Positions 37,535 through 43,031 of a stretch of DNA of 48,995 bases are shown here, in pieces. Within the stretch, counting starts at the first letter, position 1, and the number at the start of each line of letters is the position of its first letter. Origin of the DNA: Methanothrix harundinacea (lineage in GTDB: Archaea; Halobacteriota; Methanosarcinia; Methanotrichales; Methanotrichaceae); NCBI GenBank assembly GCA_001509375.1, contig LGFT01000012.1:1-48995 (forward strand). Direction: 5' to 3'. The notes beneath the pieces were generated by a model. The model was not told where the DNA came from and searched no databases. It worked only from the letters and a program-made list of their open reading frames with translations. Made by a program: the position numbers and the translations under genes.

Positions 37535-37975
37535 TCAGGTCCCAACGTAGTGCTCATCGATCTCTATCATGGGGTTCCTCCAGGCGGTGGAGGCGGGAAC
37601 GTCGTAGCCGGGAGTGCCCATGTTGTCAGGATCTCCCTGTAGGACTCCGAGATCAACCATGCCGTCTGTGACGTCCTCGTTGATCTTCATGGTGGTGTAG
37701 CCTACGCCCTGATAGATCGGGTCCTCATATACATACTGCTTGTCCTTGACCAGGATGTCGATCTCCTTGTCCACGGCCTTGGCGTACTCCACCTGGTGGT
37801 GCATCATGGTGGCTGGCCTGTAGTTCTTTATGACCGTCTTCTCCTTCAGGAGGGAGTCGTAGCGGATGGGGTTTTTGGCGTAGTAGCCGTTCCCATATGC
37901 CATGGTCATCGGTGAGTAGACCATGGAGTTGTCCTCCCTCGCAGAGATGCAGGAGTAGGCCTCCCACTCAACCAT
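37535..37975 (-). CDS. Hypothetical protein, 146 aa
   Basis: An ORF with protein-like composition, rich in tyrosine, methionine and aspartate, with repeated beta-strand-like segments (KNPIRYDSLLKEKTVIKNYR, GVGYTTMKINEDVTDGMVDL) and a C-terminus EIDEHYVG. There is no signal peptide or membrane segment as annotated, yet the strand-rich pattern and a short non-hydrophobic N-terminus would fit an exported protein that lost its leader. The ribosome site is weak. I do not recognise the family. It lies between the truncated mptE and the decayed sulfite-reductase copy. Confidence 0.6.
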   Translation of the reverse strand: MVEWEAYSCISAREDNSMVYSPMTMAYGNGYYAKNPIRYDSLLKEKTVIKNYRPATMMHHQVEYAKAVDKEIDILVKDKQYVYEDPIYQGVGYTTMKINEDVTDGMVDLGVLQGDPDNMGTPGYDVPASTAWRNPMIEIDEHYVGT

Positions 37976-38174
37976 AATCTAACGCCAATCCCCTATTTTA
38001 ATCTGTTGATTGCATGATATATTATCGAGATGGGAGAAAGCGAAATTATCCAGATTGTCCGATCTCCCTGAGATAAAATAGAAGATCTCAAAATAGCGGA
38101 TATCGAAGATCGGAGGAGAGGAGCGAATTTCAGCGGCGAAGAGAGGTCTAAAAAGAAATAAAAATGGATGTATG

Positions 38175-38440
38175 ATTTGGCGGCATACTAAACCATCCCT
38201 TCAGCTTTTTACGGCCTAAGAAGACAGGACTCGCCGCTTGAACACCTCGAACTCCATCGTGTTTATGAACTCCCGAACTCCCGCAGCCGCATTCCGGGTT
38301 TTGCGCCCTCCCGATAAACCTTCAGGATTCGCCCGATCAGAGGCAATATCTCCTCTCTCGCCACGAAGTCGCGGAGCATTCAGCCATCGACGCATTTGTC
38401 GTAATCTATGACCGCCCTTACCGACCTCGAAGCAGTACGC
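38175..38440 (-). pseudogene. Decayed copy of the 3' end and downstream flank of the small sulfite-reductase-like gene
   Basis: Base-by-base reading shows strong similarity to 40745-41085. The shared stretches include gccgcattccgg, ttgcgccctcccgataaacc, ggcaatatctcctctctcgc and cgaagtcgcggagcat. About 140 bases of the intact gene are deleted in this copy (joining agcattcagcc to atcgacgcatttgtcgta), and there are smaller indels and stops. Similarity continues past the gene's stop into the downstream flank (gatttggcggc), so it is a copied DNA segment rather than a shared domain. The rest of the 37976-38536 gap is AT-rich and shows nothing else I can name. Confidence 0.8.
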
Positions 38441-38536
38441 CTTTCGAGGTGTTAGAGTCTGAAAAAGTAGAGATTAGCCAATTAGAGGAGAACTACTCGC
38501 AGAGGGTCAAGATCGAAAATGTTAAGGTAGGCCACC

Positions 38537-40489
38537 TCACTGAGATCGCATCTTCTCCTCGGCCTCAAGCACCTCTCTGATGAACTCTCCCTCACCAACT
38601 CTCTGGATAACGTTGCCTAATCGTTCTCTTCCTGGCTTCGTCCTGTACTTTATAAAAACTGCAGCAACACTATTTATCAGCCGGAATAGATCCTTCTTTG
38701 TACAGAAGTTTCTCAGGAGGATCCCATCTGTGGGGATTCTCGAATCGTTGCCGCCTATCCAGAGTGCATATCCTTTGTTCTCTTCGAGCATAGCCTCATG
38801 CGGGCAACTTCTGATACACCATCCGCACTCAACACATTTGTCCCGATCTATATGGGCCTTTCCTGCAACGACGGAGAGGGCTCCTACTTTGCACATCTCA
38901 GTGCATCTACCACAACCATTACACTTCTCCGGATCCAGGACAGGTCTGACATGTCCCATTATGCCAATATCGTGACGTCTTACCCTGACACAGGAGTTAG
39001 GACATCCCGCAATGCCGATCTTCATCTTGTGCGGTGTCAATCGCTGTACGAACTCCGCTGTCAGCTCATTTGCAAGCTGCTTCGTCTCCACAAGCCCTTC
39101 TGGGCAGTATGCGATTCCTGGACAGGCAACCACATAACCCATCCCGATAGTCATGAGCCCCTTTTCGTACAGTTCTGCCATCAGATCGTCAATCTTCTCG
39201 CCGGGAACTCCCTGTATCTCAATGCTCTGCCTAGTAGTAGCCTCAAGCGATCCATCTCCGTACTTTCTCGCCAGCTCAGCCACCTTTGCCAGATAGTCGT
39301 GGTTCACAAGGCCAGAAGCAGTCCTTATTTTGACGAAGAATGTTCCCTTCGCTTCTGGCCTCACACCCGGATAGTCCCTTGCCCAGTAGAACTTGATCGG
39401 TTTCTCCTCTTCCAAGCGGTTTTTCAGCTCACGGTCAAAACTTCGCATCTTATGACCGGCAAACTCTTCGATCCGATCTACTTCTACCTCAGAGGAAGTC
39501 TCTATATATCCTGCCTTCTCAGCGGCATCGATCAGTTCCAAGCCTTTTGCATTCCTGGCTATCAAAGTGGTCCAGTCTTTAGAAGTACCAGTGTAACCGG
39601 CCGAGACGTCAGCGAGCTTAGAGACGGCATCTCTGCAAATATAGCAGCCGTCCCAGACAGCTCCAGCTTCCTCGACCTCCCTGAGGTCCAACTCCACATC
39701 GTGGCCATCTTCCATCTCCAGCTGCATCGTTTCCAGCCTTATGACAAACTTCTTGACATTCTCGAGCTTTACCCCCTTGGCCTTCATGAACTCTGCTAAC
39801 TTTTCATAAGAGAAATTCCGCATGCAGAAGAGGCCAATGGTATAGGCAAATGTAGGAAGCTTTATCGGTGTGCCGTCTTCTTCACTCACCTCCATAGGAT
39901 GCGCATTCAGTCCTTCAAAGAATTGCATTCTTCTAAGGCCGTTAACCTGGCATGGCAAAGCCACAACAGCAACTTTGTTCAGTGTCTTTCCAGCCTCCTC
40001 GGCGGCTTTTAGCAGAGGTGTGACGCAGTACTTAGAGCCAGCAGCTTCTATAAGACCTGCTTTGTCCGTAATGACGCTGGGGACAGGCTCCCACGTCCCT
40101 TTTGTCCCCACAACACCGTCTACCAGACCGCTATCCAGGCAGTATGCCAGCAGCGCAGTTACAGCTCCACCATCTTGCCCTGCCTCTCTGATCATGCTAT
40201 CTGAAGCTCTTGCGCCTACCATCTTTTCATATTGACCAATAAGAGATGGTGGCTTTGCCTTGAAGCCAAATATGGTAAGACCCATACGTGACGCATCTGT
40301 CGTTATCCGGTGGCACACATCCATGCATGCCCCCTTCCCATCCCTTGGGCATTCCTCTACCAGCACTGGACCGTCCTCAAAAAACTCGATCCTGCAATTT
40401 GGACATACTGCAGCACATGCTCCACAGTAACTGCACAAGTCCAAGTTTACCACCTCGTTCCTCAGGAACCACTTAAATTCGTCTCCCAA
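38537..40489 (-). CDS. fsr: Coenzyme F420-dependent sulfite reductase (Fsr)
   Basis: 650-aa two-part enzyme that reduces sulfite to sulfide with reduced F420. The N-terminal half (about 1-345) is an FpoF/FrhB-like F420H2 dehydrogenase with a ferredoxin cluster (C19, C22, C25, C29) and further cysteines (C47, C55, C59). The C-terminal half is a dissimilatory-type siroheme sulfite reductase: TTRQSIEIQGV, siroheme/[4Fe-4S] ligands C456, C462, C496 and C500, and two ferredoxin clusters (523-533 and 552-562). All ligands are present. The TTG start at 40489 has GGGAGGTG just upstream. GC is visibly lower than in its neighbours. Likely roles are sulfite detoxification and sulfite use as sulfur source. 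Confidence 0.93.
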   Translation of the reverse strand: MGDEFKWFLRNEVVNLDLCSYCGACAAVCPNCRIEFFEDGPVLVEECPRDGKGACMDVCHRITTDASRMGLTIFGFKAKPPSLIGQYEKMVGARASDSMIREAGQDGGAVTALLAYCLDSGLVDGVVGTKGTWEPVPSVITDKAGLIEAAGSKYCVTPLLKAAEEAGKTLNKVAVVALPCQVNGLRRMQFFEGLNAHPMEVSEEDGTPIKLPTFAYTIGLFCMRNFSYEKLAEFMKAKGVKLENVKKFVIRLETMQLEMEDGHDVELDLREVEEAGAVWDGCYICRDAVSKLADVSAGYTGTSKDWTTLIARNAKGLELIDAAEKAGYIETSSEVEVDRIEEFAGHKMRSFDRELKNRLEEEKPIKFYWARDYPGVRPEAKGTFFVKIRTASGLVNHDYLAKVAELARKYGDGSLEATTRQSIEIQGVPGEKIDDLMAELYEKGLMTIGMGYVVACPGIAYCPEGLVETKQLANELTAEFVQRLTPHKMKIGIAGCPNSCVRVRRHDIGIMGHVRPVLDPEKCNGCGRCTEMCKVGALSVVAGKAHIDRDKCVECGWCIRSCPHEAMLEENKGYALWIGGNDSRIPTDGILLRNFCTKKDLFRLINSVAAVFIKYRTKPGRERLGNVIQRVGEGEFIREVLEAEEKMRSQ

Positions 40490-40773
40490 GATCTACACCT
40501 CCCTTTGATTATGGGGCTCCAACTAACTTAAAGTTATTGATATTATTTTTCCTAAAAGTTCTCCTCTATCCGCTACCTAAACCACAAAAGATTTCAAAAA
40601 ATCACCTAAAAATCAAGATTTGCGTCTATTTAAATAATTTTCAAAATAATCGACCCGGGACCAATCGAGATCCTCGTGATCAAAAATCTGCAAGCGCAGA
40701 GGATGGCCCCCTGTTGGAGATTAAGAAAGATATAAAAACAGTTGGCGATTTGGCGGCGTCCGAAATCGCCCCA
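40490..40773. promoter_or_regulatory. AT-rich region carrying the fsr promoter
   Basis: About 285 bases, much richer in A+T than the flanks. The palindromic TATTTAAATA at about 40625-40635 and the A/T block at 40530-40560 (read on the minus strand as AAAAATAATATC) are candidate box A elements for fsr. The minus-strand sequence GGGAGGTGTAGATC directly before the TTG is a strong ribosome site that fixes the start. The right end, about 40745-40773, is the part repeated at 38175. Confidence 0.5.
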
Positions 40774-41634
40774 TCAGCTCTTTTCAGTCCTGGAAGATTC
40801 GACTCTTCGCTTGAACTCCTCAAACCCTATGGTATTTATGAACTCTCGCAGCCGCATTCCGGGCTTTGCGCCCTCCCGATAAACCTCCAGGATTCGCTCG
40901 ATGAGTGGCAATATCTCCTCTCTCGCCACGAAGTCGCGGAGCATCCAGCCCTCGTGGGGCGGCCAGCTCCCGCGCCCGCCCACAAAGAGCATGTACCCGT
41001 CCTCGGCGGTGTACCTCGCCCCCACCGGGCAATTAACTACGCACCGGCCGCACATGACGCATTTGTCGTAGTCGATGACCGCCTTTCCATCGACGACGGT
41101 GGCCGCCCCCACCTTACAGACCTCGACGCACTTCCCGCACCCAGTGCACTTCTCAAGGTCCAGCTCTGGCCTGACCCGCCCCATGATGCCGATCTCGTTG
41201 AACTGGGGCCTGGTGCAGGGAAAAGGACATCCTCCAATCCCAACCTTGAGGGGGCCAGGCGTCTTCTCGCCCGTGAACCTCTCGCCGATCTCTCTGGCGA
41301 GGCCGGTCGTCTCGGCCGCGGCCTTGAAGCAGTACACTTCCCCAAGACAGGAGACGACGTTCCGGAAGGTCATGCCCGCAGACCCCGGCGCAAGCCCCAC
41401 CTCCTCGAGATCTTTGAGCGCCGCATCCAGCTTCTCCTCGGGAACCCCAAGGATCGAAAGCTCCTGCCTCACGGTGAGGTGGACTACAGCGCCGTACTTC
41501 TCGGCCACCTCCCCCACTCGCTTCACCTGCCCAGGGGAGAGCATCCCTCCCGTCACCAGGACCTTTATCTCAAACTTCCCGTCCCTTCTCTTGAAGACGG
41601 AGGGCATTCCTTTATACATCTCTGGCTTCAACAA
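40774..41634 (-). CDS. Small siroheme sulfite/nitrite reductase-like protein (Dsr-LP type)
   Basis: 286-aa single-subunit member of the dissimilatory sulfite reductase-like family found in many methanogens. It has the N-terminal ferredoxin-like half (TVRQELSILGVPEEKL), siroheme/[4Fe-4S] ligands C96, C102, C136 and C140 (SCLGEVYC and GGCPFPC), and an inserted pair of [4Fe-4S] ferredoxin clusters (CTGCGKCVEVC at 163-173, CVMCGRCVVNC at 192-202). It lacks the F420H2 dehydrogenase half found in Fsr, so it needs another electron donor. The physiological substrate is unproven. The gene is about 60% GC like its surroundings and probably native. Confidence 0.88.
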   Translation of the reverse strand: MLKPEMYKGMPSVFKRRDGKFEIKVLVTGGMLSPGQVKRVGEVAEKYGAVVHLTVRQELSILGVPEEKLDAALKDLEEVGLAPGSAGMTFRNVVSCLGEVYCFKAAAETTGLAREIGERFTGEKTPGPLKVGIGGCPFPCTRPQFNEIGIMGRVRPELDLEKCTGCGKCVEVCKVGAATVVDGKAVIDYDKCVMCGRCVVNCPVGARYTAEDGYMLFVGGRGSWPPHEGWMLRDFVAREEILPLIERILEVYREGAKPGMRLREFINTIGFEEFKRRVESSRTEKS

Positions 41635-42125: not shown

Positions 42126-43031
42126 ATGTTAGACCCAGCCCGTGAGCTGGAAAAGGAGGACAAAAGGGGGATGCTGGCAGAACTGGAAGAAAAGAAGGCC
42201 CGGCTGAAGCAACAGGCCATCGATTTTAAAGAAAGTCGCAGCCAATTGAACGCTGAAGCCAGCAAATGGGCCGCGGAGCGGAACGAACTGAACAAGAAGA
42301 CCAAGGAGCTCATAGATAAGGCTCAAGAGCTCAAGACGCTCCGTGACGAGTACAACAAGAACGTGGCTGAGGCAAAACAGAGTCGGGACGAGTACAACGA
42401 GAAGACCAACGACTTATACGCTCAGATAGACGAGATCAGGAAGAAACACAACCTGACCGGCGATCGATCCATAAGAGGTCTGCGAAGAGAAATAGACCAC
42501 ATGGAGTTCAAACAGCAGACCGAGGTTCTGAGCCCCGATAAGGAAAAGCAGCTGGTCGAGAGGATCTCAGCGCTCCGAGCCGAGTTCAAAACGAGAAAGG
42601 AGCAGATGGAGAAGAACGAGGTGCTCAGAGATCTTCTGGATGAGGCGCAAGCCCTTCGGGACAAAGCATCTGAGTATCACGATCTCGTCACAAAGTCCGC
42701 AGAACTCGCCCAGGAATACCACGACAAGATGATCGCCACCTTCAAAGAGGCCGACCAGGTGAGAGCCCAGGCAGACGCAGCCCACCGGGAGTTCGTAAAG
42801 GCCCAAGAGGCGGCCGACAAACAGCACCGAGAGTTCATACGAACTCAAAGAGAGATACGCGATTTCGACAAGATCATCACGGGTCTGAGGAGAAAGAACC
42901 GGGAGAAGAGAGAGGACAAGGTCAAGGCCGAGGTCAGGAAAGAGGCCGAGGAGATTCTCACCCAGTTCAGACAGGGAGAAAAGCTGGACACCTCAGATCT
43001 CTTGAGACTTCAGCGTTCAGGACTAGTTTAA
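42126..43031 (+). CDS. Archaeal coiled-coil protein (COG1340-like)
   Basis: 301 aa, almost entirely heptad-patterned helix with many K, E, R and Q residues, from residue 5 (ARELEKEDKRGMLAELEEKK) to about 275. A short break lies near residues 108-135 (KKHNLTGDRSIRGLRREIDH). There is no membrane segment and no catalytic motif. This matches the conserved archaeal coiled-coil family sometimes annotated as a phosphoserine phosphatase, a label with no support in the sequence. A structural or scaffolding role is likely. It is monocistronic as far as can be seen. Confidence 0.82.
   Translation: MLDPARELEKEDKRGMLAELEEKKARLKQQAIDFKESRSQLNAEASKWAAERNELNKKTKELIDKAQELKTLRDEYNKNVAEAKQSRDEYNEKTNDLYAQIDEIRKKHNLTGDRSIRGLRREIDHMEFKQQTEVLSPDKEKQLVERISALRAEFKTRKEQMEKNEVLRDLLDEAQALRDKASEYHDLVTKSAELAQEYHDKMIATFKEADQVRAQADAAHREFVKAQEAADKQHREFIRTQREIRDFDKIITGLRRKNREKREDKVKAEVRKEAEEILTQFRQGEKLDTSDLLRLQRSGLV

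Follow-up and report, generated by a model that had tools for sequence, protein, structure and literature searches.

The window considered here, which means the whole analysed stretch of 48,995 nucleotides, carries a gene, fsr, that an initial annotation read as a full-length F420-dependent sulfite reductase (Fsr) of foreign-looking composition, acquired horizontally and giving sulfite tolerance or sulfite assimilation, in an aceticlastic lineage provided that it belongs to the Methanotrichaceae. The locus raises two questions, namely what the encoded enzyme would reduce and how its gene came to lie where it does. The answer favored here, and held to be probable, is that of a group II Fsr, most likely nitrite-reducing, which would have been acquired horizontally from an unsampled relative and placed beside dsrLP, a gene for a group III Dsr-like protein.

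The genome encodes McrA and four AMP-forming acetyl-CoA synthetases (Acs) that pass the curated cut-off, including a tandem array of three. It belongs to a family separate from that of Methanohalophilus and Methanolobus relatives. These features fit the Methanotrichaceae, which we take to be the family in question. The aceticlastic placement made in the initial annotation agrees with McrA and the four Acs genes and is deduced rather than observed.

The predicted protein, its group and its probable substrate

The reading frame of fsr is intact and occupies the minus strand, on which the initial annotation was silent; with a TTG start at 40489, GGGAGGTG upstream of that start and a stop at 38537, it specifies 650 residues. 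The features of the locus are the following:

37535-37975, minus strand: remnant of a conserved neighbor gene of about 298 aa (residues 109-250 only, in frame)
38174-38435, minus strand: degenerate copy, lacking its 5' part, of the 3' end of dsrLP and the DNA beyond it (identity to the genome's own dsrLP 99/106)
38436-38536, minus strand: spacer of about 100 bp from the fsr stop to the dsrLP remnant (no match to dsrLP, congeners or the sister genus)
38537-40489, minus strand: fsr, read from a TTG start and encoding a predicted F420-dependent siroheme reductase of group II, 650 aa (from ORF, domains, structure match and motifs)
40490-40508, minus strand: ribosome-binding stretch GGGAGGTGTAGATC, the sole upstream DNA common with the sister-genus fsr (GAGGAGGTGTAGATC)
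40509-40773, minus strand: AT-rich intergenic DNA, dsrLP to fsr (dissimilar to its sister-genus counterpart, z = 0.1)
40774-41634, minus strand: dsrLP, intact and native to the genus, encoding a group III Dsr-like protein of 286 aa (fourfold divergence, d4, 0.56 to genome G002 and 1.35 to genome G020)
42126-43031, plus strand: DUF7121 gene, conserved left flank in the genus of the window genome and the sister genus

The Fsr of Methanocaldococcus jannaschii, the structure of which has been solved, matches the predicted protein over 5-645 (E 1.6e-132). The domains detected (FrhB_FdhB N and C, NIR_SIR ferredoxin-like, NIR_SIR and several Fer4) follow the layout of the Fsr family, with an N-terminal FrhB/FpoF-like F420H2 dehydrogenase half and a C-terminal siroheme reductase half containing an inserted ferredoxin. 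An AlphaFold model built with 21 relatives (mean pLDDT 76, pTM 0.65) finds its best PDB matches in the Fsr entries 7np8 and 7npa (E about 1e-56, TM about 0.72-0.75). Alignment of the cysteine motifs confirms the earlier statement that all cluster and siroheme ligands are intact, including those of the siroheme-[4Fe-4S] center (C456-X5-C462, C496-X3-C500), the ferredoxin (C523/526/529/533, C552/555/558/562) and the N-terminal half (C19/22/25/29, C47/55/59, C180/222/282/285). Both domain layout and cofactor ligands can be read directly from the encoded protein.

The sulfite-binding residues of the M. jannaschii enzyme are R355, R423, K460 and K462 (PMC10229431). In the alignment these correspond to K387, a gap, K488 and K490, the gap being a four-residue deletion (RATL in M. 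jannaschii). The complete set of four residues that distinguishes group I is not present in the predicted protein, which has the traits of group II: lysine for R355, loss of R423 and a shortened pocket. The replacement of R355 by lysine together with the loss of R423 is the combination by which group II Fsr is recognized in the literature (PMC6286981, PMC9295563, PMC10229431). The lysine and the RATL deletion occur in all 20 FsrII rows aligned, that is, the whole alignment minus the second copy of genome G029, and are absent from that copy, which is FsrI-like. The second N-terminal cluster motif is also group II-like, with no cysteine at its second position and CHR replacing CPR; the lack of this cysteine and of the terminal proline is common to the same 20 rows. 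In the tree the protein lies within the FsrII clade, and a branch of 3.8 separates the G029 FsrI-like copy (the one FsrI row). As judged by tree and pocket residues, the predicted protein is a group II Fsr. Genome G029 itself (L173) encodes an FsrII plus the FsrI-like copy, the latter 37% identical to the protein of the window, a double occurrence resembling the published case of Methanohalobium evestigatum.

The closest known systems are the FsrII enzymes, or F420-dependent nitrite reductases (FNiR), that occur in ANME-2c and other members of the Methanosarcinales (PMC9295563, PMC6286981); they are 55-64% identical to the predicted protein over the full length and resemble it in domain order, all cofactor ligands, the lysine for R355, the lost R423 and a second N-terminal motif without the cysteine and terminal proline. 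Unlike them, it stands in a deep lineage of its own (100/100), in a family from which Fsr was not reported in the literature searched; in one study of Methanothrix genomes the sulfate transporter was the only one present among sulfur-assimilation genes (PMC12448728). FsrI of M. jannaschii and Methanothermococcus (7np8, 7npa; M. infernus 9tn7) has the same two-half architecture and cofactor wiring and provides the best fold match at 36-37% identity, but, in contrast to the predicted protein, keeps all four sulfite-binding residues. FsrI uses F420H2 to reduce both sulfite and nitrite (PMC10229431, PMC13381448) and is a nitrite reductase too in nitrate-using Methanococcales (PMC13381448). The product of dsrLP is a homolog of the C-terminal Fsr half, sharing with it 43% identity and the siroheme and ferredoxin motifs, but has no F420H2-oxidizing half and is native in composition and divergence; the function of Dsr-LP proteins is unknown (PMC3448663).

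The sole group II enzyme characterized, FsrII of ANME-2c, reduces nitrite with F420H2 (Km 5 uM) and not sulfite, and low micromolar nitrite inactivates methyl-coenzyme M reductase, Mcr (PMC9295563). Since the predicted protein is a member of the same group, its function is predicted by analogy to be F420H2-dependent, Mcr-protecting nitrite reduction rather than sulfite tolerance. The N-terminal FrhB/FpoF-like half would oxidize F420H2 on FAD, electrons would pass through [4Fe-4S] clusters to the siroheme-[4Fe-4S] center of the C-terminal half, and an oxyanion would undergo a six-electron reduction there, most likely nitrite to ammonium, so that removal of nitrite would protect Mcr. Nitrite specificity and physiological role are extrapolated from one characterized group II enzyme, and the substrate could differ from that of the ANME-2c enzymes, to which the lineage of the window protein is only about 60% identical. 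The genome contains a gene of the formate/nitrite transporter family, which may equally serve formate.

A functional sulfite reductase conferring sulfite tolerance or sulfite assimilation, as originally proposed, is an unlikely alternative, though one with some arguments on its side: the protein belongs to the Fsr family with siroheme and cluster ligands intact, reduced methyl viologen lets the ANME-2c FsrII reduce sulfite (PMC9295563), and sulfur assimilation could be the task of two further genes in the genome, one for a PAPS-reductase-family protein and one for a small siroheme reductase. It is countered by the sulfite site, in which R355 is lysine and R423 is deleted as across group II Fsr, and by the failure of the characterized group II enzyme, a nitrite reducer, to use sulfite with F420H2 (PMC9295563). 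The sulfite role is on these grounds unsupported, and nitrite detoxification is the better-supported of the two roles.

Other genes of the genome touch on the same chemistry. Its siroheme oxyanion reductases are three, namely dsrLP, fsr and the small enzyme just mentioned, which is NirB/alSir-like (218 aa; L051, G000 contig C62, 3515-4171, minus strand). A stand-alone FpoF/FrhB-like F420 dehydrogenase subunit of 379 aa (L052, G000 contig C87, 14315-15454, plus strand) shares 37% identity with the N-terminal Fsr half. At 943-2836 of the window (minus strand) a glutamyl-tRNA reductase gene adjoins a gene that by eye resembles precorrin-2 dehydrogenase/siroheme synthase and would provide siroheme precursor.

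Distribution, composition and divergence of fsr

Under a strict cut-off Fsr occurs in three of the 50 family genomes: the window genome, the one carrier among nine genomes of its genus, and both genomes (G012 and G020) of one sister genus. Class-wide it was found in 49 of 238 genomes. The Fsr of the window genome is 86% identical to those of G012 and G020, and in the tree the three family sequences group together (100/100) on a long stem of 0.37. This clade is placed between a group of Methanosarcinaceae plus ANME-2a/b and a group of ANME-2c, ANME-1 and family f4; nested in neither, it represents a separate deep branch of FsrII in a tree whose rooting is unsure, the FsrI root being a single long branch with one FsrI sequence. 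The phylogeny against ANME, Methanocaldococcales and Methanobacteriales called for in the initial annotation points to none of these as the source. Transfer from ANME, Methanosarcinaceae or Methanobacteriota is rejected, as the family Fsr nests in none of them, and no donor clade outside the family was identified in the Fsr tree, where fsr is nested in no sampled clade. A divergent FsrII (54%) on a contig binned as Methanofastidiosia (L093) may represent a transfer or a binning error.

The foreign-looking composition is real. The GC counts made by hand (28/60, 27/60 and 36/60) were exact on recount; fsr has a GC content of 50.3% and a GC3 of 0.533, in comparison with a mean GC3 of 0.748 (sd 0.080) for the genes of the genome, 11 of 464 of which lie at or below fsr (background of 707 kb of the 2.38-Mb genome, with a simple codon-based gene finder). 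It is third lowest of 175 genes in the first 246 kb, where mean gene GC is 59%, and 13th lowest of 382 genes in whole codon usage, while the neighboring dsrLP is typical (GC 60.7%, GC3 0.78). Composition alone is suggestive of a horizontal origin. As fsr was chosen for its composition, divergence was used as an independent test.

In the comparison with G012 (55 orthologs), fsr ranks first in protein identity (85.7% vs. a median of 69%) and has the lowest fourfold divergence (p4 0.47 and d4 0.75; medians 0.59 and 1.44). The same holds for both measures among 22 orthologs shared with G020 (d4 0.70 vs. a median of 1.35). Between G012 and G020 the divergence of fsr is normal (d4 0.10 vs. a median of 0.09), therefore its synonymous sites are not simply slow. 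The d4 of dsrLP to G020 (1.35) is as expected for a native gene, and within the genus the pairwise medians of d4 are 0.54-0.68. In the CarB tree the sister genus adjoins the genus of the window genome, which is itself nested inside its own genus; the path to G012 is 0.18 for Fsr vs. about 0.41 for CarB, both proteins being about equally far from other families. Because fsr is the gene least diverged between the genera, it would have been exchanged after they split, its two lineages having separated considerably later than the genera, at about genus age.

Strictly vertical inheritance was weighed seriously for the shared synteny. Here fsr would be ancestral to both genera at the locus and repeatedly deleted through the dsrLP direct repeats until left in one of nine congeners. 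The order DUF7121, dsrLP, fsr, truncated dsrLP and a hypothetical gene is common to both genera, a shared position also expected from a single vertical descent; moreover, the family Fsr sequences are monophyletic, and with the two genera adjoining in the CarB tree about two losses would be enough. This account is nevertheless improbable. It is contradicted by the divergence ranks, fsr having the lowest fourfold divergence of both ortholog sets at about half the median, by the DNA on both sides of fsr, which is dissimilar between the genera (z 0.1, the level of shuffled sequence, for the upstream spacer and -0.5 for the other side) whereas the next native intergenic region is alike (z 8.6), and by a GC3 that has not ameliorated.

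Horizontal transfer of fsr thus appears well supported as the best explanation: presence is patchy and the carriers differ less in fsr than in vertical genes, although nesting inside an identified donor clade was not found. The acquisition claimed in the initial annotation stands on this patchy presence and on the least divergence of all orthologs tested, whereas an origin in the outside groups that it listed for comparison does not. The grouping within the same family that it had held to speak against transfer is indeed seen, but the history behind it does not look vertical. Neither sampled sister-genus carrier is likely to be the direct donor, because fsr has a lower GC3 in the window genome (0.53 vs. 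0.60 and 0.59) and a poorer codon-usage fit to its genome (z -2.1 vs. -0.9 and -0.8). A recent transfer straight from G012 or G020 is rejected on the lower GC3 and the fourfold divergence of 0.70-0.75.

Locus architecture and possible route of insertion

In congeners without fsr the gene order is DUF7121, dsrLP, a conserved gene of about 300 aa and an MptE-like gene. In the window genome and G020, an intact dsrLP flanks fsr on one side and a 5'-truncated dsrLP copy on the other; in G012 the intact copy is missing. The truncated copies of the sister genus follow immediately on the fsr stop, with codon 142 of dsrLP as their first, and are about 90% identical to the dsrLP of G020. The remnant in the window (38174-38435) is 75-82% identical to the dsrLP of congeners and 68-73% to the sister-genus copies. 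The conserved neighbor gene (about 298 aa in G020 and secreted-looking) is cut to its middle 142 residues in the window genome, with both ends missing, and dsrLP itself is patchy, being seemingly absent from three of the nine genomes of the genus (G003, G007 and G008).

The position of fsr between dsrLP and a truncated copy resembling each genome's own dsrLP suggests insertion by recombination at dsrLP with partial duplication of the latter, perhaps once per lineage. The gene would have entered by horizontal transfer, after the genera split, from an unsampled carrier related to those of G012 and G020. Homologous recombination would most likely have set it next to the resident dsrLP, the truncated copy downstream of fsr being the insertion scar; both the recombination route and the donor are inferred. 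Gene conversion between dsrLP copies could also yield the own-genome likeness and mimic a recent duplication, in a comparison that covers about 106 bp. Inheritance or transfer en bloc, as one cassette, is not favored, given the dissimilar flanks on both sides of fsr and the resemblance of the truncated copies to their own genome's dsrLP, although gene conversion keeps a cassette possible. More tentatively, and with doubt outweighing confidence, fsr may be a travelling gene within the family (probably Methanotrichaceae) that was inserted at least twice independently at one site, dsrLP serving as a landing pad and the truncated copy allowing later deletion of fsr.

Regarding vehicles, no mobile-element gene adjoining fsr was identified, a search of viral contigs with the protein of the window returned no relative, and a plasmid search returned only separate, distant genes; carriage by virus or plasmid is rejected on the last two results. 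In haloarchaeal plasmids (e.g., NZ_CP039140.1, 109761-112050) a gene for an F420-dehydrogenase beta subunit adjoins a separate ferredoxin-nitrite reductase gene, a pair that may represent the Fsr layout in unfused form.

The odd composition, a draft genome of 118 contigs and a dsrLP repeat on both sides of fsr, which is a classic site of misjoining, could also be taken as signs of an assembly chimera or a contaminating contig with fsr joined by error. This is very improbable, as native, genus-typical genes lie on both sides of fsr in the 49-kb contig, the same arrangement occurs independently in two other genomes, and the truncated dsrLP copy is already degraded and so no assembly duplicate.

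Significance for aceticlastic methanogens

FsrII is a known kind of enzyme, and its occurrence in this group of organisms seems new; an acetate-using family would join marine and hypersaline methanogens and ANME among its carriers. The sulfite reductase label is likely a misannotation that the group II assignment corrects, and the Fsr of the window offers a natural test of whether nitrite is the substrate wherever a group II pocket occurs. Digesters and wetlands owe much of their methane to aceticlastic Methanotrichaceae. If some of their strains can acquire an F420H2-driven nitrite reductase, nitrite tolerance would vary from strain to strain and be predictable from one gene, and, should the idea of a travelling gene prove true, aceticlastic methanogens would readily gain and lose their defense against nitrite or other oxyanions.
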